Shown here: one piece after another, positions 23,100 to 38,638 of the stretch
Numbering within the stretch: position 1 is the first letter of the stretch
Layout of the letters: every line of letters starts with the position of its first letter
Source: an uncultured bacterium
GTDB taxonomy: Bacteria > Bacteroidota > Bacteroidia > Chitinophagales > Chitinophagaceae
Assembly: GCA_903826405.1 (NCBI GenBank)
Contig: CAIKEH010000044.1
Span: 1 to 64,000, forward strand
Direction of reading: 5' to 3'
DNA: 64,000 nt
Notes under the pieces: model-generated
Database searches by the model: none
Told to the model about the DNA's origin: nothing
The model's input: the letters and a program-made list of their open reading frames with translations, nothing else
Translations under genes and position numbers: made by a program

Positions 23100-23130
23100 T
23101 TGACCTCTACATTTCAATCAATTACCTTTG
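23100..23130 (+). promoter_or_regulatory. Promoter of the DUF5916 gene, nearly leaderless
   Basis: TTG at 23100-23102 and TACCTTTG at 23123-23130, separated by 20 bases, match the Bacteroidota -33/-7 consensus (TTG, then TAnnTTTG). The ATG of the following gene begins only six bases after the -7 box, so the transcript would start at or within a few bases of the start codon. Confidence 0.55.
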
Positions 23131-23136
23131 CGGGCC

Positions 23137-25398
23137 ATGATTAGAGTTCTCACTGCCATTTTACTTTTTTTGTTCCTGCTTCCTGCGGACTCTCGATCCC
23201 AATTTAAAAAGGAGAGGAGGACGTTGTTACAGTCCCTGACCATTGACAAATACCAAGATAATTTCAAGATCGGGATCAGTAGGGTAAACGAGCCCGTTAC
23301 CATCGATGGGGAACTCAATGAACCCATCTGGAAAAAAGCTGAAAAGGCCGATGACTTTTTCTTGAAGTATCCGAATGACAAAGAGCCTCCGGGGCGGCAG
23401 ACCGAGGCACAAGTCGCTTACGACGACAAGTTTCTCTACGTAGCCTTCACTTGCTTCGATACTAGCTTAGAGATCATACAGAGCCTGAAACGGGACATAG
23501 GACATCTGGATAACGATGGCGTCGGTATCGTACTGGACCCTATGAACCTGCACACAACAGGTTTCATCTTTGTTGTCAATGCTTTCAATGCGCAGTCCGA
23601 CGAGCAACTCAGCCTCAGCCAGGATAACGAGATCCAATGGAGTTGGAACAGCAAATGGTTCTCCGCCACGAAACGTCATGGTGATCGATGGACGGCGGAA
23701 ATGGCCATCCCGTTCAAGACCCTTCGTTATCCATCTGGCAAAAAATTGTGGGGTATCAATTTCATCCGGGTGGATATGAAAAAGAACCAGTACTCGGTCT
23801 GGACCCATGTGCCGGTCAATTTTCGCATCTATAATTTGGGATATACCGGCGGATTGATATGGGATAGCCTGCCACCAGTAGCAAAAAGCAACATGGTGGT
23901 GATCCCATATGTTACGGGAAGTGGTCAGGAGGACAGGGAGAATGGAGAGAAGATCAGTTTCAAAGGTAATGCGGGACTTGATGCGAAATTGGCACTCAAC
24001 TCGAGGCTCAACCTCGACCTCACCCTCAATCCTGACTTTTCTCAGGTTGAAGTGGATCAGCAGATCACCAATCTCACCAGATACAACCTGTTCTTTCCGG
24101 AGAAAAGGAATTTTTTTCTGGAGAACTCCGACATCTTCAGCGAATATGGCATACCCAGCTTCATGACGCCATTCTATTCCAGAAGGATCGGAGTGGACAA
24201 TAATGGCAATCGTGTGCCCATCATCGGGGGAGCTCGTTTGACCGGTGGCGTGAGTCCCACCACACGCATCGGCATCATGGATATTCAGACGGCTGGGACC
24301 AGTGATTTTGCTGCGCAGAACTATTCAGCGCTTTCGCTCAACCAGAATGTTTTTGGGCGTAGCGTCGTGAAAGGTTATTTATTCAATCGTCAGGGATTCC
24401 AGAGCGAATCACAGAAAGCGGCAGACCCCCTTGGAGCCTGGGGCAGAAATGCCGGTACTACTTTCGATTACATCAGCCGAACGGGGAAGTGGAATGGATG
24501 GGCTGCCTATCACCAATCCTTCAAGCCAGGAATCCATACCAACGATAAATTCCTCGAGGCCGGTTTCGGCTATACGGGTAATCGTTTCAGCAACATGGTG
24601 GATGTCGTTCACATGGGAACCAACTATTACACGGATATGGGATTCGTGCAGCGTATCGAGAATTATGATGCATCCCGGGACACTTCCATCCGTGTTGGCT
24701 TCAATCACCTTTTTGACAATGCGACCATGAAATGGTTTCCAAAAAATGGTCCGGTAAGTCGTCACACCCTTAGCCTGGAAAGCTATACTGTATTAAATCC
24801 GGACTGGACCTTCAACGAATCGAATAATACGCTTAAGTATAAGTTGGAGATGAAGAATACAGTCATGCTCAACCTGAACTTATTGAATGATCAGGTGAAC
24901 CTGTTGTATCCGATTTCGTTCACAGGAGGAAAACCCTTGCCTGCGACCCATTATGGGTACACCTATGGAACCGTGGAGTTCTTCACGGACAGTCGCAAAA
25001 CATTTGGGGGGATGATCGGAGGTAATTTTGGCACTTTCTACAATGGAACCATCCGGTCTATCAAAGGAGGTTTGATGATTCGCAGCCGTCCGCACGTCAA
25101 TATCGGCATCCTTGGGGAGTACGATATTCTGTCTTTCCCCGGCGATTATGGCAAGACCGTCCTCTTGCTGATATCACCGAAGATCGAGATCAATTTCTCG
25201 ACAACGCTCAGTTGGACCACCTTCATGCAATACAATACGCAGGCGAATAATTTCAACATCAACAGTCGCTTCCAGTACCGGTTCAGGCCGATGAGCGACA
25301 TCTACCTTGTATATTCGGATAATTACTTCACCGATCCATTGCTGCGTAACAAGAACCGCTCTCTGGTCTTCAAGATGAACTATTGGCTGAACTTGTGA
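23137..25398 (+). CDS. DUF5916 outer-membrane protein with CBM9-like N-terminus
   Basis: 753 residues from the ATG at 23137; a TTG three codons upstream lies inside the -7 promoter box, so it is rejected. A signal peptide ends near SRSQ. Residues about 50-220 form a CBM9-like beta-sandwich (VTIDGELNEPIWKKAEKAD, QVAYDDKFLYVAFTC). The DUF5916 hallmark follows (LNPDFSQVEVDQQITNLTRY, then FFPEKRNFFLENSDIF). The C-terminal 400 residues are rich in alternating aromatic and polar strands and end in a strand with an aromatic residue near the terminus, as in outer-membrane barrels. Function unknown; members are often found near peptidases and transporters. It converges with, and directly abuts, the next cluster. 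Confidence 0.82.
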   Translation: MIRVLTAILLFLFLLPADSRSQFKKERRTLLQSLTIDKYQDNFKIGISRVNEPVTIDGELNEPIWKKAEKADDFFLKYPNDKEPPGRQTEAQVAYDDKFLYVAFTCFDTSLEIIQSLKRDIGHLDNDGVGIVLDPMNLHTTGFIFVVNAFNAQSDEQLSLSQDNEIQWSWNSKWFSATKRHGDRWTAEMAIPFKTLRYPSGKKLWGINFIRVDMKKNQYSVWTHVPVNFRIYNLGYTGGLIWDSLPPVAKSNMVVIPYVTGSGQEDRENGEKISFKGNAGLDAKLALNSRLNLDLTLNPDFSQVEVDQQITNLTRYNLFFPEKRNFFLENSDIFSEYGIPSFMTPFYSRRIGVDNNGNRVPIIGGARLTGGVSPTTRIGIMDIQTAGTSDFAAQNYSALSLNQNVFGRSVVKGYLFNRQGFQSESQKAADPLGAWGRNAGTTFDYISRTGKWNGWAAYHQSFKPGIHTNDKFLEAGFGYTGNRFSNMVDVVHMGTNYYTDMGFVQRIENYDASRDTSIRVGFNHLFDNATMKWFPKNGPVSRHTLSLESYTVLNPDWTFNESNNTLKYKLEMKNTVMLNLNLLNDQVNLLYPISFTGGKPLPATHYGYTYGTVEFFTDSRKTFGGMIGGNFGTFYNGTIRSIKGGLMIRSRPHVNIGILGEYDILSFPGDYGKTVLLLISPKIEINFSTTLSWTTFMQYNTQANNFNINSRFQYRFRPMSDIYLVYSDNYFTDPLLRNKNRSLVFKMNYWLNL

Positions 25399-26289
25399 TC
25401 AGGCCATGCCGATCTTCCTGATGCCATACACACTATTCAGGAGAAAAAGGATCACGCCCCAGACAGAGATAATGATGGAGTACGCTATGAAGAGTAGCCA
25501 AACCGGTGTCTTGTGTCGAGTGGCATAAAGCGTCCTCCTGTCAAAATTGTTTTCCGGCTTGACGTATTTGCCCCAAGGAATTGCTTTTTCCAAGGTAAGG
25601 TTTCCAAGTGTCTCGTTATCTTCTACTACTGCTGCAACTACGATCTCCCCTTTGATGTCCCCAGGCATGCTGTCTCTTTTGAATTCTGCATTGACTTGGC
25701 CGAGTGAGTCTGTGGTATAAGAGGCGACTTCGGCATTGATAGGCAGCAGGCTGTTCAGCCTGTGTATGCCAAGCTTCATCTCCACACCTTTAACCGGTAT
25801 CCATTCCTGTTTCTCGTTAAGTAGGGTGACCATAACACTTATGTTTCTGCCTTCCAATGTATCCAAAGTGATCTTGGATCGGGTCATTTTTGCTTCCGCT
25901 TTGGTCTCATCGAAATCTTTGTTCGCATCCACGATGGCAGTAATGGTATGAGATACACTACTTTTCCATACGCTCTGAAATGCCACAGGAATGGGAAGCT
26001 TCGCAACCCCACTGGAGTTGGTTAAAACTTTGGAGAGAAGATTCTTTGGTTCTGTTCCATCGAGGTAAACGGAGACCGGAAGATTTCCTACTGGCTGGAA
26101 TTTCCTATCGATCTTGGTTTTTGCCTGAACAGCAATGTACTGAGTCTGGTTATTGATCAGAAAATATCCTGGAGTAAGTATTAGAGTCTTTTTGCTCGTG
26201 GAATCGCTTTGGGCGAAGCCGTTTGCTCCGATGGTCAGGAAGACTACAACTGCAAACGCCTTCAACGATAATTCATGCAGCTTTTTCAT
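25399..26289 (-). CDS. Exported membrane-anchored subunit of the NrfD/Fe-S cluster (unknown family)
   Basis: 296 residues. A signal peptide (cleavage near GFAQ) is followed by about 220 residues of beta-rich periplasmic sequence that looks like two Ig/CnaB-type repeats (YIAVQAKTKIDRKFQPVGNLPVSVYLDG and VMVTLLNEKQEWIPVKGVEMKLG). A single C-terminal membrane helix (WLLFIAYSIIISVWGVILFLLN) comes last. I do not recognise a named family. Its start overlaps the NrfD-type gene by 17 bases, so it is translationally coupled to it and is probably an accessory subunit of that complex. Last gene of the cluster. Confidence 0.7.
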   Translation of the reverse strand: MKKLHELSLKAFAVVVFLTIGANGFAQSDSTSKKTLILTPGYFLINNQTQYIAVQAKTKIDRKFQPVGNLPVSVYLDGTEPKNLLSKVLTNSSGVAKLPIPVAFQSVWKSSVSHTITAIVDANKDFDETKAEAKMTRSKITLDTLEGRNISVMVTLLNEKQEWIPVKGVEMKLGIHRLNSLLPINAEVASYTTDSLGQVNAEFKRDSMPGDIKGEIVVAAVVEDNETLGNLTLEKAIPWGKYVKPENNFDRRTLYATRHKTPVWLLFIAYSIIISVWGVILFLLNSVYGIRKIGMA

Positions 26290-27580
26290 GTTGTTCTATT
26301 AATGTTTCCTGAATGGGTATGATGGGGAATATCCTGGCGAAAAAAGTGATCACCAGTAATGCGCCCGCCAAGGATCCTATCGCGATGGCCCATTCCTGCC
26401 AACTCGGGAAATAATGCAGGTAATTCTTCGGTACATCATGCATGGGTAGGAAGGGATGCAACAAGGTTGGCGTCACGATCAGGTAACGTTTGAACCAAGC
26501 ACCTACTACGACCATGACACCTGCAATGAAGGCTGGCAGAGGTTTTCTGCCCAGCTTGAAAAGAAGTATCATTATGGGTACTGCCATTCCTGCCAGTATG
26601 GCGAACCAGAAAAGTGGTGCGAACTCTCCTGTGAACAATTCTGTCAAGTGTGCTTCCTCGGGCTTTTTCATTTTGAAAGCCGGTACGAGGTATTCATTGA
26701 TATTGAAATAAGCATAGAGCAGAGCGAGAAGCACCACGATCCGTGACATTTTATCAAAATGCTGTTCGGTAATATACTTCTCCAGATGATATGCGCTGCG
26801 AAAGACATACATGGCGACCAGCACGGCTCCCGAGCCCACCAAGAATGCACCGGAAATGAAGTAGGCTCCGAAATTGGTGCTGTCCCATCCTGGCCGGTAG
26901 GTTGTTGCGAACAGCCATGATGTGACTGTATGGATCGAAAAGGCCACAGGGATGATGGTTATGCAAAGGATGCTGATGGCCCTGTTGCTGATCCGGATCT
27001 GTTCAGGTTTGTCTTTCCAGAATGATCCTATGGCTCGATAGAATCCGTTCCACTTCTTCGTTGCGCTATTCTTTGCATTGAGAAGGAATTTGATGTCCGG
27101 AAGCAACGGAAAATAAAGCAGAAGCAGGCTGATGATGAAATAGGTGCTGATCACTATGACATCCCATATGATCGGTGATTGCAAGCGACCATATAATAGG
27201 AGATTATAGAACCTGTCCGGCCTGCCCATGTCCACCACGATTATGATCGAGGCGAAGACGATCGCGGAAACAGCGATGATCTCGGCAATTCTGGTCAGGG
27301 GTGTACTCCAGTGGACATCGACCAGTCTGAAGACTGCGGTGATCAGTGATCCCACGAGACTGATGGCGACGAAGAACACGAAGTTGGATATATAAATGCC
27401 CCAGGATACATAATCCCTCATGCTGGTAACAACAAGTCCATCCCTCAATTGGAGAAAATAGGCGAATGCGCCAAATGCTGACAGGAGGATAAGAATCCCG
27501 GTCCAGATCATTCCTTTTTTTCCGAAACGTTGTGGTAGTAAGTCCTGAACTGTTTGTTGGGTTAACTGGTTATTTTCCAC
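26273..27580 (-). CDS. NrfD/PsrC-type membrane quinol-interacting subunit
   Basis: 435 residues with about 8-10 predicted helices. The N-terminal part (DYVSWGIYISNFVFFVAISLVGSLI) and the loop VDMGRPDRFYNLLLYGRLQSPIIWDVI are NrfD/PsrC hallmarks, closest in feel to the ActC/ActF subunits of alternative complex III. Proteins of this family bind quinol or menaquinol in the membrane and pass electrons to or from a periplasmic Fe-S partner. That partner is encoded immediately upstream (16-base gap). Unlike classical DMSO or polysulfide reductase loci, no molybdopterin catalytic subunit is present in the cluster. Confidence 0.85.
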   Translation of the reverse strand: MENNQLTQQTVQDLLPQRFGKKGMIWTGILILLSAFGAFAYFLQLRDGLVVTSMRDYVSWGIYISNFVFFVAISLVGSLITAVFRLVDVHWSTPLTRIAEIIAVSAIVFASIIIVVDMGRPDRFYNLLLYGRLQSPIIWDVIVISTYFIISLLLLYFPLLPDIKFLLNAKNSATKKWNGFYRAIGSFWKDKPEQIRISNRAISILCITIIPVAFSIHTVTSWLFATTYRPGWDSTNFGAYFISGAFLVGSGAVLVAMYVFRSAYHLEKYITEQHFDKMSRIVVLLALLYAYFNINEYLVPAFKMKKPEEAHLTELFTGEFAPLFWFAILAGMAVPIMILLFKLGRKPLPAFIAGVMVVVGAWFKRYLIVTPTLLHPFLPMHDVPKNYLHYFPSWQEWAIAIGSLAGALLVITFFARIFPIIPIQETLIEQHEKAA

Positions 27581-27596
27581 GATCGTTCATTTAGAT

Positions 27597-28538
27597 TCAA
27601 GATTTCCTGACTGCTGATTCTCGCTCCCTCTCTTGTTCCATGCCGGATTCGAACGGGAAGTTCCGGTTAACCGGGGGCAGATAATAGACGCTGGGCTTAG
27701 TGCCAAGGTCTTCCATGAGACGATAGCCTGCCTTGTCCCGGATCAATTCACTGAATTGGAAAGTTTCTGAGCCGTTGGTCACGCTGTCTTCATTCATGTC
27801 TCCGAAAGAGAAAACACCATTGGGACAGGCGGAAACACAATGCGGCAAACTTCCCTCTCGGACCATATCCGGGCAGAAATCACATTTGCCTACTGTTCCT
27901 TTCTTCTGTGGTACGCTACTTTCGCATGAATAGGGTTTGTCCGCCAGTTCCTGTGGCATTTCGGGTTTTTCCCAGTTGAATACGCGCGTGGAATATGGAC
28001 AGGCGGCCATGCAGAAACGGCAACCGATGCAACGATCACTGTCTATCAGTACGATCCCATCTTTCCGTTTGAACGTAGCATCCACGGGACATACCTTGAC
28101 GCAGGGAGGTTCATCACAGTGCATACAAGTAGTGGGTTGCCAGTAAGGAGCGGTCTTTTCCGCATCTTGCATCGGGTATACCTTGATCCAGTTCTGATCT
28201 GAATGTACATGATGTACATGATTGCACGCCGACTGGCATTTTTTCAGGTTCTTGCATCGGGACAAGTCTATCACCATGACGAATTTCTTACCTGCTATAC
28301 CTAAGCGGGCAACGTCATTGGACACGGGAGGCATTTCGGGTATGGGTTTCAGGAAAGCCTCGTCCACCTCTATGATCTCACCGTCCGAGGACAATAACTT
28401 GACCTTCTTCCCTGACGCTTTCACGGTGGAGTCATCGGGGGTGAAAACATCATTACTATTATTACAACCAAGAGCGGTCAAGCCTGCGGTGATTCCGGCG
28501 GCAAGAAAATCCCTTCTGCTGTTGTCCAGATTTTGCAT
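27597..28538 (-). CDS. TAT-exported four-cluster [4Fe-4S] ferredoxin-like subunit
   Basis: 313 residues. It begins with a twin-arginine signal (NSRRDFLAAGITAGLTALGC), whose last residues could also act as a lipobox. Then come CKNLKKCQSAC, CMHCDEPPCVKVCP, CIGCRFCMAACP and CDFCPDMVREGSLPHCVSACP, the four cysteine groups of NrfC/DmsB/PsrB-type electron-transfer subunits. The C-terminal end (GTKPSVYYLPP) is also typical. It would sit in the periplasm and shuttle electrons between the NrfD-type subunit and the cluster's cytochromes. The short sequence after the signal (KLLSSDGEIIEVDEAFL) recurs in the small protein encoded next door. Confidence 0.88.
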   Translation of the reverse strand: MQNLDNSRRDFLAAGITAGLTALGCNNSNDVFTPDDSTVKASGKKVKLLSSDGEIIEVDEAFLKPIPEMPPVSNDVARLGIAGKKFVMVIDLSRCKNLKKCQSACNHVHHVHSDQNWIKVYPMQDAEKTAPYWQPTTCMHCDEPPCVKVCPVDATFKRKDGIVLIDSDRCIGCRFCMAACPYSTRVFNWEKPEMPQELADKPYSCESSVPQKKGTVGKCDFCPDMVREGSLPHCVSACPNGVFSFGDMNEDSVTNGSETFQFSELIRDKAGYRLMEDLGTKPSVYYLPPVNRNFPFESGMEQERERESAVRKS

Positions 28539-28557
28539 GTATTGGGTTTGAGGTTGG

Positions 28558-28812
28558 CTATTTTCTGATCCAAGTTTTTAACTCATCATCGGTTATCTTT
28601 TTCCTTGTTTCGGAAAGAAGTGCGTCATCCACTTCCACCAGTATGCCATCTTGAGTAAGCATCCGATGTGTTTTTCTTACTGGCTCCGGCCCGCAGGAGA
28701 GGACCTGCTTCCGATCAAAGAAAAGGGATCTAAGACCTCCAAGGAGTGCCATGATGCTGATGCCATAAACGAATGTCCGCCTCTTGCTTATTGCTGGATT
28801 ATTGTTTTGCAT
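28558..28812 (-). CDS. Small TAT-like protein sharing a motif with the Fe-S subunit
   Basis: 84 residues from the ATG at 28812; the frame extends to 28905, but the KRRTF twin-arginine-like segment and hydrophobic stretch (VYGISIMALLGGL) lie at the usual distance from 28812. The mature part contains MLTQDGILVEVDDALL, which aligns with LLSSDGEIIEVDEAFL of the Fe-S protein encoded 19 bases downstream (shared DG, EVD, A and L). No cysteine cluster is present; there is only one Cys. I do not recognise a family. It may be an anchor, chaperone or assembly subunit, or a remnant of a duplicated Fe-S N-terminus. Confidence 0.55.
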   Translation of the reverse strand: MQNNNPAISKRRTFVYGISIMALLGGLRSLFFDRKQVLSCGPEPVRKTHRMLTQDGILVEVDDALLSETRKKITDDELKTWIRK

Positions 28813-28908
28813 GATGTTATATATGGTTGTGGGTGCTCCTGAAACTGGAAGATCCAGCCTATGAAAACGTAACATGGCATTGAGCAATGCTGCGTTTAGT
28901 TCCAAGGG

Positions 28909-29310
28909 TTATTTTTTCAGAGTCCTGAGAAAATTGACCAAGTTCCACCTGTCTTCATCCTCCGGGATTTTTTTCTTGAAACTGGGCATATCATCTCTGC
29001 CTTCTGAAACCTTGAAGAAGAGGGAGCCGTCCGTTTGGTTTTGTGTGGTTGATTTACTGAAATCTCCCGGTTCTGTTTTCAATTGGGCTGCTTTCGGTCC
29101 GTCCCCCAAGCCGTTTTTTCCGTGGCATGATGAGCAGTGCTGGTTCCAGAGTGACTTTCCTTCCGAAATGGATTCGGCATTCGTTTTCACGGGATTGGCC
29201 TTACTTGCCGACGCGGCAGGTACTGCCCAGGGTTTGGGTTGGAAACGGAAAGATGCACCAATCAGGAATAAGCCGGCCAGTGCACAGAGAGCGATGATCC
29301 TGGTTTTCAT
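28909..29310 (-). CDS. Periplasmic mono-heme cytochrome c
   Basis: 133 residues with an N-terminal signal or anchor (IIALCALAGLFLIGAS). Residues 46-133 are a class I cytochrome c: WNQHCSSCHGKNGLGDGPKA with Cys59, Cys62 and His63 binding heme, and Met108 (RDDMPSFKKKIPEDE) as the distal ligand. It ends in the usual WNLVNFLRTL helix. In the cluster it is a natural electron acceptor from, or donor to, the Fe-S/NrfD pair. Confidence 0.88.
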   Translation of the reverse strand: MKTRIIALCALAGLFLIGASFRFQPKPWAVPAASASKANPVKTNAESISEGKSLWNQHCSSCHGKNGLGDGPKAAQLKTEPGDFSKSTTQNQTDGSLFFKVSEGRDDMPSFKKKIPEDEDRWNLVNFLRTLKK

Positions 29311-29363
29311 GTTGATCGTGTTTTATGGGTGAGTGAATGAGGTTTTATGGAGAGATCTTTTGA

Positions 29364-30299
29364 TCAGAAATTCCAAAGTCGGTTGATGTTGAATCCGATC
29401 AAGAACTGTCCTTTCGTATAGTCGTTCATATTATAGAGGTTGTTGTATTGTGGCAGGATCGCATTGTAGTTCGCGAAGAAAACCTGAAAGCAGTGCCCGC
29501 TGGTCTTGATCTCGATGCCGCCACTCAGGTTGGGGTGCGGATTGTTCATTGGATGTTGTGTGATCGGTTGGTCATAGTTCGCTATGATGGACATTTTGTC
29601 CGTGACCTTGTACCTTCCACCCAATGAGAAAGAAAGGTGCGTGTTCTCGTACATGGGCTGTACTTTACCGTTTTCGTCAAGGTATCCTTCCAGATTATTG
29701 AAGTGGGTGACATTAAAAGATCCCTGAGCAGAGAATTTGTCCGTGAACTTCCTGGCGACGATCAATTGGTTAAAAAAGTTCAACCTGTCTGCGAAGGTTA
29801 TAAAAAGGGTGGAGTTGTCTTTTTTCCTCGTGTCCATGGCCACATTGCCGAACCAGGTCAGACTGATGGGCATGCTGCCATCTTTTGTCTGTTTCAGTAT
29901 AGCGTATTTCGAATTGAAGTCAACCACCATGTTCTCGCTGTATATGCCTGCCCCGAACTGCAGCCTATCCATGGGAGCGTAGTTGGCAGCAAGACGGATA
30001 TGAGCACCGCCGAAGATGCCGAAGAGGTCGGTGAAACCTTTATCCCAGGTGCCGAACCGGTGCTGCATCAGGAACTCAAAGGTGCCCTTGATGGGTACCA
30101 TGACGGTCTGGTTGTCGATCACGTAGTTGCCTTCAAAAGTGTTTTTCGTGAAGGACTTCTTTTTGGTTGCCGGAGCCAGGGAAGAACTGTCTGTTTGTGC
30201 CTTCAGTGCGGCCAAGGGAAATGCCAGTGAGCAAAGGACAAGCAAGGCGTACCTTTTGATGGCTCTGATCATGGAAAAGTGTTGGATATGCTGTTTCAT
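29364..30299 (-). CDS. DUF5777-like outer-membrane beta-barrel protein
   Basis: 311 residues. The signal peptide (KRYALLVLCSLAFPLAALKA) follows a Met at 30272 that may be the true start. The rest is beta-strand-rich with alternating aromatic residues (FEFLMQHRFGTWDKGF, HIRLAANYAPMDRLQFGAGIYSEN, HLSFSLGGRYKVTDKMSIIANYDQP) and ends ...GFNINRLWNF with a terminal Phe, the outer-membrane insertion signal. It matches my memory of the DUF5777 barrel family. Being in an operon with heme proteins and lipoproteins, it may be a sheath or porin for the electron-transfer system. Confidence 0.72.
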   Translation of the reverse strand: MKQHIQHFSMIRAIKRYALLVLCSLAFPLAALKAQTDSSSLAPATKKKSFTKNTFEGNYVIDNQTVMVPIKGTFEFLMQHRFGTWDKGFTDLFGIFGGAHIRLAANYAPMDRLQFGAGIYSENMVVDFNSKYAILKQTKDGSMPISLTWFGNVAMDTRKKDNSTLFITFADRLNFFNQLIVARKFTDKFSAQGSFNVTHFNNLEGYLDENGKVQPMYENTHLSFSLGGRYKVTDKMSIIANYDQPITQHPMNNPHPNLSGGIEIKTSGHCFQVFFANYNAILPQYNNLYNMNDYTKGQFLIGFNINRLWNF

Positions 30300-30309
30300 G
30301 ACGTTCTGT

Positions 30310-30708
30310 TTAGTTGTTTTTTGCTCCCTGTTTGATCCAGGCCAGCATGATCTTGTTGATGTTGTCTGGATTATTGGGCGCTCCGAGCGGCATTGCGGGT
30401 GTTTTCTTGGCGGTCATGTATAGATAAACCTCGCTGTTCTCCGGATCTTGTTTATTTAGATAATTCCCGGTGATGAGTGAACTGAGGGCTGATTCTGTTT
30501 TCAGGTTCGGTCTTACACTACCGTCGTGACAGCCGCTCAGGGCGCAATTTTGGGTCAGTAGCGGGCTTAACTCCTTTGAAAAACTCACTTCCGTAGTGAT
30601 GTCAGGTGAGTTGTCTATGATGACCGTGGTGGTTTTCCTACAACCCGCCATCACCATCAAGATGACCGCGACGATGGCCAATGCAACACTTATGGGTTTT
30701 TTTAACAT
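30310..30708 (-). CDS. Heme c lipoprotein with CX4CH motif
   Basis: 132 residues. Lipoprotein signal ending VMAGC (Cys23). The single heme site is NCALSGCHDG: Cys55, Cys60, His61, with four residues between the cysteines instead of two, a variant seen in Planctomycete/Bacteroidota-type cytochromes. MPLGAPN at residue 106 gives a possible distal Met, and the C-terminal helix (INKIMLAWIKQGAKNN) matches cytochrome c-like domains. Probably attached to a membrane on the periplasmic side. Located between the barrel and the EB_dh-type genes in one operon. Confidence 0.75.
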   Translation of the reverse strand: MLKKPISVALAIVAVILMVMAGCRKTTTVIIDNSPDITTEVSFSKELSPLLTQNCALSGCHDGSVRPNLKTESALSSLITGNYLNKQDPENSEVYLYMTAKKTPAMPLGAPNNPDNINKIMLAWIKQGAKNN

Positions 30709-30744
30709 GATTCCTGATTTAGGTATTCCCGGATCTCGCGGCGT

Positions 30745-32064
30745 CTACTTGCTGAATTTCAGCATGAGGTTGGGTTTGATGCCGTGCTGGTAGTTTGAAC
30801 TGTTGAAGATGGCCATTCCGAAAGGTTGGTCCTGCAACTGTCCGTCCACCATCCCGTTGGTGAAGTCTATATCCTGTTTCAATTGGTCAGGGGTCTTTAA
30901 TTTTCGGGTGAATTCAAGCACCCATCCTGAACCATTGTAGATGCCCATCGCTGTGAAGTCGCTCCTGCCCGCTGTGAAGGGGGCGGATATGAATGCGGGT
31001 ATGCATTTTGCTCCAACCTGTGGAGCCGTGCCATCATGGTCAGCATAATCTGAATTGCCCGTTGGGTCGATGGTACCGTCCGCATAGGTGAGTACTCCGG
31101 CGCTGCTGACACCAGTTATCTTTTTTGCCGGCCCTCCCGGTAGGGTATCTGTGGCGGAGTAGAACAATTTTCCCGTGCCATCCGGTATCACCCATTTGGG
31201 AACGTTGACAGAAGCCCCTGTTCCATCTAGCTTCAAACTCTGTGAGTTGTTGAATGGTCCATTGCTCACGTTCGTATTCGTGTTGACGTATGAAGTAGTG
31301 AACGGTGAAGGCGGGACAAGATCGTCCGCATGACGTCCATTGCCAGAACCACCGACCGTATCCGTGGTTGCAGGACCACCTGCCCAATCCTGATACTGGT
31401 CGTCCATCTGGTTGGTGAGTAGGTCTTTGTTCAGGTGGCACCACCACATGTCTATTTTTTCGTTGGCTCCGTTGGTGTAATGGTTGCCACTTCTGTTGGA
31501 GACCCATTGTCCGGCATAATTCTTATAAGGGGAGAACAAGTGACAACTTGCATAGCAGGTCTGTGCCGGAAATTTTGACGTTGAATGGTCAATGTTCCAA
31601 AGCATGGCCAGTTGGTCCTGTCCCATACCTTCCTTGGTCAAGATGCCATTCACATCGAATTGCCGCGAATTGGCCCTTTGAGCCCATCGTTGTGTAATGG
31701 GGTTGAAGTACCAGGGCTGAACAGGATTGTTGCTTGCGTCGTTCCACTCGACAAGAAAGTAAATGTTCTGGTCATCATAAAGTGAACGAACGGTTGCGGG
31801 ATATTGCTCGGCGATATAACCGGCGAAAAGTCCATTTCCCGGGTTGGGGACCTCAGGAATCACTTCCAGTTTTGTTGCTGTATTCCAAACGGCATCCACA
31901 TTTCCATCGATGGTAGGGGCGCTTGAGATTTTCTGGGACAGGAGAATGTTGGTTTCTCCCGCAGGGGTCACGTTGATGACCTGGTCCTTTTTTGTACAGA
32001 AAGTGAGACCGATCATGGAAGCGATCCCCAGTACGACAACATATCCTTTTTTTGAACTGAACAT
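30745..32064 (-). CDS. Ethylbenzene dehydrogenase-gamma-like heme lipoprotein with CX3CH
   Basis: 439 residues, first gene of the cluster. Probable lipoprotein (signal ending GLTFC, Cys23). It has the EB_dh/DMSO-reductase-gamma-type beta-sandwich: APTIDGNVDAVWNTATKLEV near the start, then RSLYDDQNIYFLVEWNDAS. An inserted heme c-like site is QTCYASCHLF (Cys170, Cys174, His175), with three residues between the cysteines. In the characterised family this domain binds heme b and receives electrons from a molybdoenzyme; here that partner is missing. The predicted role is an electron-entry or exit protein on the cell envelope. Confidence 0.78.
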   Translation of the reverse strand: MFSSKKGYVVVLGIASMIGLTFCTKKDQVINVTPAGETNILLSQKISSAPTIDGNVDAVWNTATKLEVIPEVPNPGNGLFAGYIAEQYPATVRSLYDDQNIYFLVEWNDASNNPVQPWYFNPITQRWAQRANSRQFDVNGILTKEGMGQDQLAMLWNIDHSTSKFPAQTCYASCHLFSPYKNYAGQWVSNRSGNHYTNGANEKIDMWWCHLNKDLLTNQMDDQYQDWAGGPATTDTVGGSGNGRHADDLVPPSPFTTSYVNTNTNVSNGPFNNSQSLKLDGTGASVNVPKWVIPDGTGKLFYSATDTLPGGPAKKITGVSSAGVLTYADGTIDPTGNSDYADHDGTAPQVGAKCIPAFISAPFTAGRSDFTAMGIYNGSGWVLEFTRKLKTPDQLKQDIDFTNGMVDGQLQDQPFGMAIFNSSNYQHGIKPNLMLKFSK

Positions 32065-36005: not shown

Positions 36006-36356
36006 ATGGGTCCTGCCTCGATGATAGTCCTGATCCTTGCCGCATTGGCATTTTCCATATTTGCCATACTTTTAGCTAAGGTCGTCACCAAATCAACGAC
36101 CAACCCACAGAAGGGCCAACCCTACGAATGCGGTGTCCCCACGCAAGGGCAGACATGGACCCAGTTCAACGTGGGATATTACCTTTTTGCACTCATCTTC
36201 CTGATCTTCGACGTCGAGATTGTTTTCCTCTACCCTTGGGCCGTTGCGGTCAAACAGACCGGTATGCTTGCATTGGTTGAGATCATCATATTCTTCTTCA
36301 TACTGTTCATCGGGTTTCTTTATGCGCACAAAAAAGGTGCGCTGAAATGGGTTTAA
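36006..36356 (+). CDS. nuoA: NADH-quinone oxidoreductase subunit A
   Basis: 116 residues, three membrane helices. Family markers: KPYECG-type loop (QPYECGVPTQGQTWTQFNVGYYLFALIFLIFDVEIVFLYPW), with the Cys and the acidic FDVE helix that line the quinone site of complex I. First gene of an eleven-gene operon. Confidence 0.95.
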   Translation: MGPASMIVLILAALAFSIFAILLAKVVTKSTTNPQKGQPYECGVPTQGQTWTQFNVGYYLFALIFLIFDVEIVFLYPWAVAVKQTGMLALVEIIIFFFILFIGFLYAHKKGALKWV

Positions 36357-36410
36357 GGAAGATAAGCTCATCATGGATCATTTATGAAGCAGGAGTTGAG
36401 GAATATATAA

Positions 36411-36427
36411 ATCCGGAATCCGGAATC
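36411..36427. repeat. Intergenic GGAATCCG-type repeat (nuoA-nuoB)
   Basis: ATCCGGAATCCGGAATC is a short, partly palindromic tract just before nuoB. Similar tracts are found at 38653-38682, 39763-39773 and 55164-55189, always between genes. Confidence 0.4.
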
Positions 36428-36446
36428 TATAATAAGGAAAGGAATC

Positions 36447-36995
36447 ATGAGTGAAACAAATACAGAAGCCCCAAAAACCTTCCCCGGCATAGTGCATGAG
36501 GTGCCGGGTGGTGGTATATTGACCGGACCTTTGGAGGATGTCGTAAACTGGGCCCGTAGCAACTCACTGTGGCCACTCGTTTTCGGGACAAGCTGTTGCG
36601 CTATCGAGATGATGTCGACAGCCTCTGCCAAGTACGACTTTTCCCGTTTCGGTTTTGAAGTCACCCGGGCCACCCCCCGTCAGGCAGACCTGATCATCAT
36701 CGCCGGGACGATCGTGAATAAAATGGCCCCAGTGCTCAAACGACTTTATGACCAGATGGCCGATCCAAAATATGTGATTGCGATGGGAGCATGTGCGACC
36801 AGCGGCGGCCCCTTTTTTTATAACACCTATTCCGTTGTCAAGGGCGCCGACCACGTCATCCCCGTGGATGTCTACGTTGCAGGCTGCCCACCCCGTCCAG
36901 AAGCCCTACTACATGCCCTGATCACCCTTCAGGAAAAGATAAAGGCAGGAGGGAAGCGTGAACGGATAGATATTGACGGTAACCTGATCAAATAA
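36447..36995 (+). CDS. nuoB: NADH-quinone oxidoreductase subunit B
   Basis: 182 residues. It carries cluster N2, the last Fe-S centre before quinone: TSCCAIEMM (adjacent Cys pair), [10 protein letters not shown] and [12 protein letters not shown] supply the four cysteines. The [19 protein letters not shown] segment is the standard NuoB core. Peripheral-arm subunit at the membrane interface, next to NuoC and NuoD. Confidence 0.96.
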
Positions 36996-37028
36996 TCATC
37001 ACAGTCGGAAGCTCAACTGCAACATGGC

Positions 37029-37484
37029 ATGACCAGAGAAGAATTACAGACCTCCATTGCCGAACTCGCCTCTGGCGCCACCTGGGATGAAGGCGGGCAG
37101 TGGCCTGTGGTGAATATATTACCCGAGGCCTGGCCTGAACTGGCCCGAACCCTGAAGAGTGATCCACTCTTCGCATTTGATTACCTTTTCTGTGTGACAG
37201 GTGTGGACTGGAAGTCCCATCTTACAGTTGTATATCATCTGACCTCTTTACGTTTTAGGCATACGCTAGTCGTCAAAGTGAAACTGGATAGGGCAAAGCC
37301 GCAAGTGGGAACCGTTTGTGATATCTGGCGTACGGCTGAATTGCATGAGCGCGAGATCAGGGAATTGTTCGGAGTGGAGTTTCTCCACCATCCCGATCCC
37401 CGTAACCTCATCCTTCCTGATGTATGGGATGGATTCCCTTTACGAAAGGATTATGAGGACCCCGTCAATATGATCAAACTCTGA
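37029..37484 (+). CDS. nuoC: NADH-quinone oxidoreductase subunit C (30 kDa)
   Basis: 151 residues. The family signature HEREIRELFGVEFLHHPDPRNLILPDVW and the C-terminal FPLRKDYEDP are intact. Separate from NuoD rather than fused as in enterobacteria. Assembles with NuoD and NuoB in the connecting part of complex I. Confidence 0.95.
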   Translation: MTREELQTSIAELASGATWDEGGQWPVVNILPEAWPELARTLKSDPLFAFDYLFCVTGVDWKSHLTVVYHLTSLRFRHTLVVKVKLDRAKPQVGTVCDIWRTAELHEREIRELFGVEFLHHPDPRNLILPDVWDGFPLRKDYEDPVNMIKL

Positions 37485-37522
37485 TCAGGTTGTCAACTCA
37501 AGTAGGAAAGTGAACTGAATAT

Positions 37523-38638
37523 ATGATCGAAGAATTGGGAACAACGGAACAGGGAGAACTGGTGATCAACATCGGCCCCCAGCACCCTGCTACACATGGG
37601 GTGTTACATCTCGTGGTCACCTTGAATGGGGAAACCATCCGGAAAGTGGAGCCCCATCTAGGCTATATCCATCGTTCCATTGAAAAGATGTGTGAAAGTC
37701 TATCTTATCGGCAGTTCATCTATACCACCAGCCGGATGGACTATCTCTCTTCTCATATAAATAATCATGCCTGTGCCCTGTGTGTGGAAAATGGCATCCA
37801 GGTGGAGATCCCCGAAAGGGCGCAGGTCATCCGGGTTTTGATGGACGAATTGACCCGCATTGCCTCACATTTGTTGTGGTGGGGTGCCATGGCCATGGAT
37901 GTGGGAGCCATTACCCCTTTCTTTTATGCTTTCCGCGAACGGGAGATGATCAATGATATCATGGAAGAGACCTGTGGTGCCAGGCTGACCATGAATTATA
38001 TGGTCCCTGGCGGGGTGATGATGGATATCCATCCCAATTTCCAGCGCCGGGTCAAGGAGTTGCTATTGCAGTTCAAACATAAATTGCCCGAGTATCATGA
38101 ATTAGTTACTGATAATGTCATCTTCCAGTCCCGCACCAAAGGAGTCGGTTACCTTTCGGCAGATGATGCGGTCTCCTATGGGACAAGCGGTCCCACGGCT
38201 CGCGGTAGCGGAGTACCCTGCGATATCCGCAAACTTTACCCGTACGATGTATACAGCAAACTTGAATTCAGTGAATGCCTAGCGAAAGAGGGCGATACCT
38301 TCGCCCGATACCTGGTACGCATGAATGAATTGGAGCAGTCCATACGCATTGTGGAACAACTGATCGATAACATTCCAGAAGGTGATTTTCAGGCCAAAAC
38401 AAAAGCTGTATTGAAACTTCCGAAAGGTGAATTCTACCAAAGGGTGGAGACCGCACGTGGAGAGTTCGGCGTATACATGATCAGTGAAGGCGCTATGCAA
38501 CCGTACAGGATAAAATTCCGTTCACCTGGTTTTTCCAACCTGAGCGCTCTGGACCATATGGCCCGCGGTGCAAAGATCGGTGACCTGGTGGCTATAATGG
38601 GGTCGTTGGATTTAGTGATACCGGATATTGATCGATGA
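37523..38638 (+). CDS. nuoD: NADH-quinone oxidoreductase subunit D (49 kDa)
   Basis: 371 residues, near the lower end for the family. GPQHPATHGVLHLVV near the N-terminus contains the quinone-binding His, and HLGYIHRSIEKMCE, TSRMDYLSSHINNHAC and the C-terminal YRIKFRSPGFSNLSALDHM with DLVAIMGSLDLVIPDIDR are all standard. It forms the quinone pocket with NuoB. In most aerobes nuoE, nuoF and nuoG follow; here only 49 bases separate it from nuoH. Confidence 0.96.
   Translation: MIEELGTTEQGELVINIGPQHPATHGVLHLVVTLNGETIRKVEPHLGYIHRSIEKMCESLSYRQFIYTTSRMDYLSSHINNHACALCVENGIQVEIPERAQVIRVLMDELTRIASHLLWWGAMAMDVGAITPFFYAFREREMINDIMEETCGARLTMNYMVPGGVMMDIHPNFQRRVKELLLQFKHKLPEYHELVTDNVIFQSRTKGVGYLSADDAVSYGTSGPTARGSGVPCDIRKLYPYDVYSKLEFSECLAKEGDTFARYLVRMNELEQSIRIVEQLIDNIPEGDFQAKTKAVLKLPKGEFYQRVETARGEFGVYMISEGAMQPYRIKFRSPGFSNLSALDHMARGAKIGDLVAIMGSLDLVIPDIDR

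Follow-up and report, generated by a model that had tools for sequence, protein, structure and literature searches.

A conserved NrfD gene block with exchangeable outer-membrane-type genes and no recognisable molybdenum subunit in Bacteroidota

The eight-gene block, its fixed part and its exchangeable head

The window considered here, i.e. the whole stretch of 64,000 nucleotides at positions 1 to 64,000 of contig CAIKEH010000044.1 (GenBank assembly GCA_903826405.1), comes from an uncultured member of the Chitinophagaceae. At 25399-32064 it carries a block of eight co-directional minus-strand genes (Table 1), all of which were found as open reading frames (ORFs) where the initial annotation had placed them. 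The inner module of this block is fixed and comprises the cytochrome c, a small protein of twin-arginine translocation (Tat) type, the Fe-S subunit, the NrfD-type subunit and an Ig-like membrane protein. The outer cassette consists of a heme lipoprotein and a 12-strand barrel, together with a first gene that is exchanged from locus to locus, namely an EB_dh cytochrome, a YceI-like protein or other heme lipoproteins. As argued below, the block probably encodes a menaquinol:cytochrome c oxidoreductase that is free of molybdenum and connected to cytochromes assembled at the outer membrane.

Pfam scores exceed their cut-offs for EB_dh (PF09459, 66 bits for a cut-off of 33), DUF5777 (PF19089, 243 bits for 23), cytochrome c (PF13442, 47 bits for 27), Fer4_11 (79 bits for 26) and NrfD (PF03916, 112 bits for 26), whereas no Pfam family was matched by the Ig-like and small Tat proteins and none rose above cut-off for the heme lipoprotein. 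The Ig-like gene was described at the outset as coupled, and its reading frame and that of NrfD share 17 bases in the window; such an overlap occurs in 83 of 90 adjacent pairs, a figure that is overstated since frames were taken from the first start codon.

Regarding distribution, 395 genomes were sampled across the phylum and 394 across the family. NrfD was present at 50% identity or more in 10/395 phylum genomes, the window's own included, and at 38-40% in two more; the remaining matches, among those listed, lie at 27-32%, and the 18 of these that were included in the NrfD tree group with ActC from the genome of the window in a single clade (support 100/99). In the family scan, 95/394 genomes match NrfD at E 1e-80 or better, 71 of the 95 reaching 1e-150 or better. 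The distribution is patchy, since only 2 of the 10 same-genus genomes listed have a match. Of note, the block NrfD occurs at 74-76% identity in records titled Comamonas (L073) and Sphingobacterium thalpophilum (L060), which are possibly mis-binned or mis-named contigs.

Regions of 20 kb were fetched around 11 phylum matches and around the best 80 of 581 confirmed loci from named genomes, so the sample leans to close relatives. With the window and two outgroup loci (L042 and L043) set aside, 89 loci were available, of which the 55 with at least 6.5 kb upstream and at least 1.5 kb downstream were counted. Counts of the eight window proteins come from tblastn on the NrfD strand within 8 kb, because in the ORF calls longer frames had displaced the overlapping cytochrome c gene of the window and a number of small Tat genes; YceI, 6TM, EBdh2, C12, C13 and DUF5777b were counted by ORF clusters. 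On this basis NrfD is accompanied by the Fe-S protein in 55/55 loci, the Ig-like protein and the cytochrome c in 54/55 each, the small Tat protein in 44/55, a DUF5777-type barrel in 51/55 and the heme lipoprotein in 50/55 (L035 counting as lacking the latter two, which lie there on the opposite strand). The heme lipoprotein directly precedes DUF5777 on the same strand in 68 of the 69 DUF5777 ORFs with an upstream neighbour, so the cluster goes beyond chance. Across other Bacteroidota the genes thus form a conserved block and are not scattered. Second FeS-NrfD-Ig copies, tandem or neighbouring, were also seen in L040, L146 and L133, those of L146 and L133 belonging to different subfamilies.

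The head of the outer cassette is far less constant. EB_dh is near NrfD in 23/55 loci, YceI in 28/55 and both together in 8/55; a second EB_dh type occurs in 3/55 (one example, L098, also having a cytochrome c domain), and paired CX4CH lipoproteins with a DUF5777 variant in 6/55, on the opposite strand in 4 of those 6. EB_dh, proposed initially as a standing member of the set, is therefore one of several alternatives, its presence changing at least 12 times on a quick NrfD tree, a count made without shuffle control. Upstream of the outer cassette, L040 and L041 additionally encode a protein that resembles a lipoprotein and has six CXXCH motifs. The cassette also exists alone: the one additional DUF5777 of the window's genome lies on contig C54 (L129, 7811-10471) in a set formed by a diheme lipoprotein (CX4CH and CX2CH), a second CX2CH lipoprotein, YceI and DUF5777, and NrfD was not found near it in the 12.7 kb fetched.

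As for the surroundings of the block, a plus-strand gene encoding CBM9 and DUF5916 domains (23128-25398) ends exactly where the Ig gene ends, stop abutting stop with zero spacer, and did not recur beside the block in the relatives whose loci were drawn. Further along, on the plus strand at 36006-38638, a nuo (NADH dehydrogenase) operon begins, with matches to PF00507 and PF00346.

Table 1. Features of the eight-gene block.
Feature	Coordinates	Strand	Basis or remark
EB_dh-type lipoprotein with CX3CH c-heme-like motif (CYASCH)	30745..32064	-	PF09459; exchangeable head of outer cassette
Mono-heme cytochrome lipoprotein, CX4CH motif (CALSGCH)	30310..30708	-	Conserved motif, profile matches
DUF5777 outer-membrane-type beta-barrel, about 12 strands	29364..30299	-	PF19089, AlphaFold2, Foldseek
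Exported mono-heme cytochrome c (CSSCH; conserved Met108-Pro109)	28909..29310	-	PF13442
Small Tat-type protein, probable start 28812	28558..28905	-	Separate protein related to the N-terminal part of the Fe-S subunit
Fe-S subunit of DsrO/NrfC type, exported by Tat and possibly lipidated; 15 invariant Cys	27597..28538	-	Fer4_11, DsrO model
NrfD/PsrC-type quinone-site membrane subunit	26273..27580	-	PF03916, ActC profile match
Two Ig-like domains and a C-terminal transmembrane helix	25399..26289	-	AlphaFold2, Foldseek

Quinone, Fe-S and heme features of the encoded proteins

The NrfD profile matches best the structures of ActC, a subunit of alternative complex III (ACIII), with E about 1e-80 to 1e-77. 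In an alignment to 6f0k_C, with positions counted by hand, His139, Ser164, Asp169 and Arg395 of ActC correspond to Asp117, Ser135, Asp140 and Arg365 of the window's protein, all four invariant in 11 aligned sequences, and Asp253 of ActC is replaced by Leu223. According to PMC8076601, which describes the quinone-site and proton-gate residues of ActC and its relatives, an Asp in the second transmembrane helix (TMH2) characterises DsrP and QrcD, as opposed to the His of ActC. By these residues, the block's NrfD seems to have retained its quinone site together with the proton gate that has been proposed, the TMH2 Asp being as in DsrP and QrcD. The features by which an NrfD/PsrC-type (CISM) quinone oxidoreductase is recognised were all found, i.e. 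an NrfD subunit with a nearby Fe-S gene, the quinone-site Ser, the acidic TMH2 residue and the gate Arg. The NrfD scores 136.5 bits with the DsrP model (cut-off 350) and the Fe-S protein 185.6 bits with the DsrO model (cut-off 200); since both fall below the curated cut-offs, assignment to true DsrOP was rejected.

The resemblance to ActC, along with a cytochrome c near NrfD in 54/55 loci, would also suit an ordinary second quinol:cytochrome c oxidoreductase, that is an ACIII-like branch feeding an oxygen reductase, in which the outer genes would be merely co-regulated. Such a branch seems rather improbable, as it leaves unexplained the barrel in 51/55 loci and the heme lipoprotein in 50/55, as an exported protein and a heme lipoprotein recur in a sister subfamily described below, and as the genome already possesses an ACIII. 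A standard ACIII was rejected altogether, the genome's ACIII lying elsewhere and the ActC rows forming a separate clade.

The Fe-S subunit was initially described as a Tat-exported four-cluster ferredoxin, of which the Fer4_11 and Tat character stands and the full set of 16 Cys does not: 15 Cys are invariant in 89 orthologues, and the second Cys of motif I is replaced by L, V or A in 86/89 (Cys in 2, Glu in 1). The pattern was also set against PsrB by alignment. The Cys missing from ACIII (6f0k_B) and ethylbenzene dehydrogenase alignments belongs to motif III, in contrast to motif I here. One cluster would consequently be a [3Fe-4S] or an oddly ligated one, and presumably belongs to that half of the ferredoxin which would be turned towards a catalytic subunit. 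A lipobox-like match follows the Tat motif in 71/89 sequences, this count and those of Tat motifs being based on simple patterns, and the protein may be a Tat lipoprotein.

The small Tat-like protein is present as first noted, with a probably different start: the listed one is a TTG, whereas translation from the ATG at 28812, in the same frame, yields 84 aa, nearer to the median of 89. By hhalign (probability 97.9, E 3.7e-12), its profile aligns with that of the Fe-S protein over the N-terminal region of the latter, both sharing a VKxLTxDGxLVEVD-like stretch beyond the Tat signal; searched against 1573 ORFs at E 0.01, it retrieves the small Tat ORFs, 86 ORFs of the Fe-S protein, and no others. 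The small protein could thus serve as a second docking piece. For the Ig-like protein, AlphaFold2 (pLDDT 90.7) predicts beta-sandwich domains, two by count, followed by a helix at 263-295, and Foldseek matches are mostly to proteins with Ig-like, MG (macroglobulin) or FN3 domains.

The heme and barrel proteins proved to be of the kinds originally proposed. In the cytochrome c, CX2CH is found in 82/82 sequences and Met108 in 82/83 aligned. The heme lipoprotein keeps CX4CH in 63/68 relatives, the other 5 having CX2CH, with C23, C55, C60 and H61 invariant in 21 aligned. The EB_dh protein has its own c-heme-like motif of odd spacing, CX3CH, in 28/30 (C170, C174 and H175 invariant in 20 aligned) and a lipobox-like motif in 27/30, with C23 in the window; profile searches return a CBM9 xylanase (E 5.9e-6) and a portion of the nitrite oxidoreductase subunit NxrC (E 1.9e-5). 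The DUF5777 protein is predicted by AlphaFold2 (pLDDT 86) as a barrel of about 12 strands, Foldseek placing it closest to the NanC porin, OmpG and FapF.

The best structural match of the heme lipoprotein profile is FoxE (E 2.2e-6), followed by hydrazine synthase alpha (E 6.6e-5), in both cases through cytochrome domains. As FoxE is an Fe(II)-oxidising cytochrome, this match favours electron uptake, whereby the outer cassette would oxidise a donor outside the cell, such as Fe(II), humics or another metal in reduced form, and electrons would pass inward via the cytochrome c to an oxidase or, running backwards, through NrfD to menaquinone; the COX1/COX2 oxidase encoded after the genome's ACIII genes could take them. 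The FoxE match spans a single cytochrome domain, from which the substrate is uncertain, and the downhill direction is from menaquinol to cytochrome c, so that uptake appears unlikely, if the least so among the alternatives considered here.

Molybdenum subunits, alternative complex III and related subfamilies

The set was from the start described as lacking a molybdenum (Mo) catalytic subunit, and wider searches agree. The genome of the window, which is in 55 contigs and rated 100% complete, was searched with PF00384 without a match; a control with this model was positive in 11/14 known genomes, and since the ActB-like protein of the genome is missed by it as well, a very divergent Mo remnant could escape it. 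By profile search at E 0.01, with some contigs being short, a Mo subunit was found in 0/110 loci bearing this NrfD family or its subfamilies. Of the 113 loci searched with this profile, which was built from three sequences and lacked an independent positive, only L042 and L043 gave matches, the remaining locus being the free-standing cassette; among the 92 first-set loci, 15 are shorter than 8 kb. In none of the family loci searched is a Mo subunit encoded beside the same genes; it appears only in these two distant loci, where an NrfD about 38-40% identical to the window's stands next to a PF00384 Mo subunit and multi-heme cytochromes. A 672-aa ORF with 19 CXXCH motifs was noticed in L042.

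The NrfD tree places L042 and L043 next to the block's family (90/90) and the ActC rows in a clade of their own; its outgroup, ActF, forms a very long branch that leaves the root unsure, and the 26 rows labelled as main form one clade only with three intermediate rows included. Given this adjacency, loss of a Mo subunit in the block's line is plausible, subject to the uncertain root. The same neighbours, with a Mo subunit beside FeS-NrfD, are what could be invoked for the block acting as the electron-transfer arm of a Mo enzyme encoded elsewhere. Since PF00384 has no match in the genome, a Mo partner elsewhere was rejected and the suggestion of a partnership with a distant catalytic enzyme is disfavoured; even when the three control genomes and the ActB-like protein missed by the search are borne in mind, such an arm is very improbable.

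A DmsA/ActB-type protein elsewhere in the genome was also looked for, with a divided outcome: no protein matches PF00384, and the ActB-like protein does exist, within an ACIII operon. This operon, on another contig, includes the genome's other NrfD-domain protein, a multi-heme cytochrome, a ferredoxin-domain protein of 1061 aa, an ActD (PF11821), a cytochrome c, a protein of 407 aa that lacks a Pfam match (ActF by position) and COX1/COX2 genes; it is an ACIII with its own NrfD-type ActC.

Besides the main family, 20 regions were fetched around more distant NrfDs. Eight of these (L131, L136-L142) define a sister subfamily in which Fe-S, NrfD, Ig and cytochrome c are kept and the additional genes are an exported protein of about 387 aa (8/8), an 87-aa heme lipoprotein (7/8) and a YceI-like protein (5/8). 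Distant versions occur in two further regions, of both proteins in L134 and of the 387-aa one in L132. Neither the 387-aa nor the 87-aa protein shows BLAST kinship to DUF5777 or to the block's heme lipoprotein; the 87-aa lipoprotein weakly resembles the cytochrome c cluster, and the 387-aa protein has no Pfam match and no PDB profile match at E 0.1. In the main-family locus L100 (1681-7481), both kinds of outer genes stand side by side: on the minus strand a cytochrome c, a 406-aa relative of the 387-aa protein (32%) and a 91-aa heme lipoprotein related to the 87-aa one (49%), and on the adjoining plus strand 6TM-YceI-hemeLP-DUF5777-cytochrome c, hemeLP denoting the heme lipoprotein. A further subfamily of seven regions (L143-L149; NrfD 35-39%) again keeps Fe-S-NrfD-Ig-cytochrome c, L146 having a main-type copy as well; its outer genes are the DUF5777b and CX4CH lipoprotein pair on the other strand in five, YceI-hemeLP-DUF5777 in one and EB_dh-hemeLP-DUF5777 in one.

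In the sister subfamily, proteins of the heavy-metal type (HMBD) are encoded in 7/8 loci, an AraC-type regulator in both L140 and L131, and CusB-like and outer-membrane efflux genes in L131. These HMBD and CusB-like neighbours raise the prospect of a metal-related redox system, reducing or detoxifying copper or other metals at the envelope. No such neighbours were noticed around the window's block, where neighbours were not family-searched singly, and neighbourhood is not function; for the block itself, a role of this kind is of low probability, on a par with that of the ACIII-like branch.

A proposed path between quinone pool and outer membrane

Set against these alternatives, a Mo-free menaquinol:cytochrome c oxidoreductase in connection with a cytochrome assembly of the outer membrane is given a probability of about 0.57. 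Menaquinol would be oxidised at a site of NrfD on the periplasmic side, and electrons would pass to the Fe-S protein exported by Tat, which would stay at the membrane together with the Ig-like membrane protein and the small Tat protein, and from there to the periplasmic mono-heme cytochrome c. The latter would dock on an outer-membrane set made of the CX4CH lipoprotein, the 12-strand DUF5777 channel and the exchangeable head, here the EB_dh protein with its CX3CH motif. This head would determine the partner that is reduced (or oxidised), either at the outer membrane or beyond it. NrfD could, in addition, transport protons.

That these proteins form one chain, that the outer set sits in the outer membrane and that electrons flow outward is what we infer from the gene content, in which a fixed inner block is linked to an outer cassette over 55 loci, from the exchange of heads and the lack of a recognisable Mo subunit in the genome and in the 110 family loci, from the quinone and gate residues kept in NrfD, from the two predicted folds and from c-heme motifs in three separate proteins, with the heme lipoprotein matching FoxE and hydrazine synthase and EB_dh matching NxrC. 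The gene sets of the sister subfamily and of L100, the free-standing second cassette, and the precedents of SirCD and CbcSTU for Mo-free NrfC/NrfD quinol dehydrogenases add to this.

Several observations weigh on the other side. The 387-aa protein of the sister subfamily looks like an outer-membrane barrel, but with neither a Pfam nor a PDB profile match this is no more than an impression, for which the above probability is set slightly lower. Four of the 55 loci have neither DUF5777 on the NrfD strand nor DUF5777b within 8 kb, and 8/55 are devoid of an exchangeable head. With about 12 predicted strands, the barrel is probably too narrow to hold a cytochrome as Mtr-type barrels do, and surface-export signals on the lipoproteins were not evident in an uncalibrated count. 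Moreover, the nearest outgroup NrfDs (L042 and L043) adjoin a Mo subunit, and with an ACIII and an oxidase in the genome the cytochrome c could feed the oxidase.

In comparison with known systems, an outer-membrane-type barrel and a heme protein encoded together recall the porin-cytochrome conduits Mtr and Cyc2. Cyc2 is a fused, mono-heme cytochrome-porin; the block differs in that barrel and cytochrome are two proteins, the barrel has about 12 strands and is NanC/FapF-like, and no multi-heme cytochrome is present in the window's block. With ACIII, the block has in common the ActC-like NrfD profile and the putative quinone to cytochrome c role; it differs by having no ActA, ActB, ActD or ActF type among its eight genes and by a separate Fe-S protein that misses a motif I Cys. 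With DsrMKJOP, it shares an Fe-S protein and an NrfD scoring with DsrO and DsrP and the quinone-site Asp of DsrP; these scores are below the curated cut-offs and no DsrM, DsrK or DsrJ type gene is found among the eight. The heme-b gamma subunits EbdC and NxrC have the same PF09459 domain, the profile match covering part of NxrC, whereas the EB_dh of the block is an exchangeable lipoprotein with CX3CH and no adjoining alpha or beta Mo subunits.

The inner half resembles SirCD of Shewanella and CbcSTU/Cbc4 of Geobacter, which combine Fe-S and NrfD-type subunits without Mo, Cbc4 also having a c-type cytochrome. SirCD is a Mo-free Fe-S and NrfD quinol dehydrogenase that can substitute for CymA (PMC11434368; SirCD also in PMC8524038), and CbcSTU is described as a menaquinol:ferricytochrome c oxidoreductase (PMC11434368). 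From the descriptions alone, the block is distinguished by its mono-heme cytochrome c, Ig-membrane and small Tat proteins and DUF5777 cassette. Likewise, among the NrfD clusters of Planctomycetota and KSB1 reported in PMC10732223, two are without Mo subunit and one lies near a porin-cytochrome complex; compared by description only, they differ by adjoining multi-heme cytochromes and an actD gene. The premise of the initial annotation that NrfC/NrfD pairs normally serve Mo reductases or ACIII was hence too narrow, SirCD and CbcSTU being Mo-free. Its overall interpretation survives as to a self-standing, Mo-free quinol-to-cytochrome module, well supported by the genome, the 110 loci and the conserved block, and fails as to that premise and to the fixed membership of EB_dh.

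In the open-licence literature covered, no description was found of this Bacteroidota family, the DUF5777 cassettes, the head exchange, the small Tat protein or the sister family, nor any paper on DUF5777 or, among the lipoprotein papers listed, any that has CX4CH; in a paper on a Mucilaginibacter metal island, six terms such as 4Fe-4S and cytochrome c are absent from the main text. The inner half is thus of an already known kind, that of SirCD and CbcSTU, and the family with its outer cassettes is apparently undescribed in the literature covered.

More tentatively, and with the odds somewhat against it, these loci could be seen as trans-envelope wires made, to the extent visible in them, of mono- and diheme parts, in which a constant Mo-free quinone module would be fitted with swappable outer tips for different extracellular or outer-membrane partners, the tips being EB_dh, YceI, other heme lipoproteins or, beside heavy-metal genes, a different exported protein and lipoprotein. 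The bacteria concerned are mainly aerobic heterotrophs of soil and freshwater. Should the proposed path hold, an unrecognised link of the quinone pool with the outer membrane would be present in many Chitinophagaceae and in some Sphingobacteriaceae, Cytophagales and Saprospiraceae, and a function could be assigned to DUF5777 and to the CX4CH lipoproteins. The combination of a single inner engine and various outer tips, along with a sister family lying by heavy-metal genes, would then amount to a natural experiment, in which the partner can be sought by comparing cassettes.

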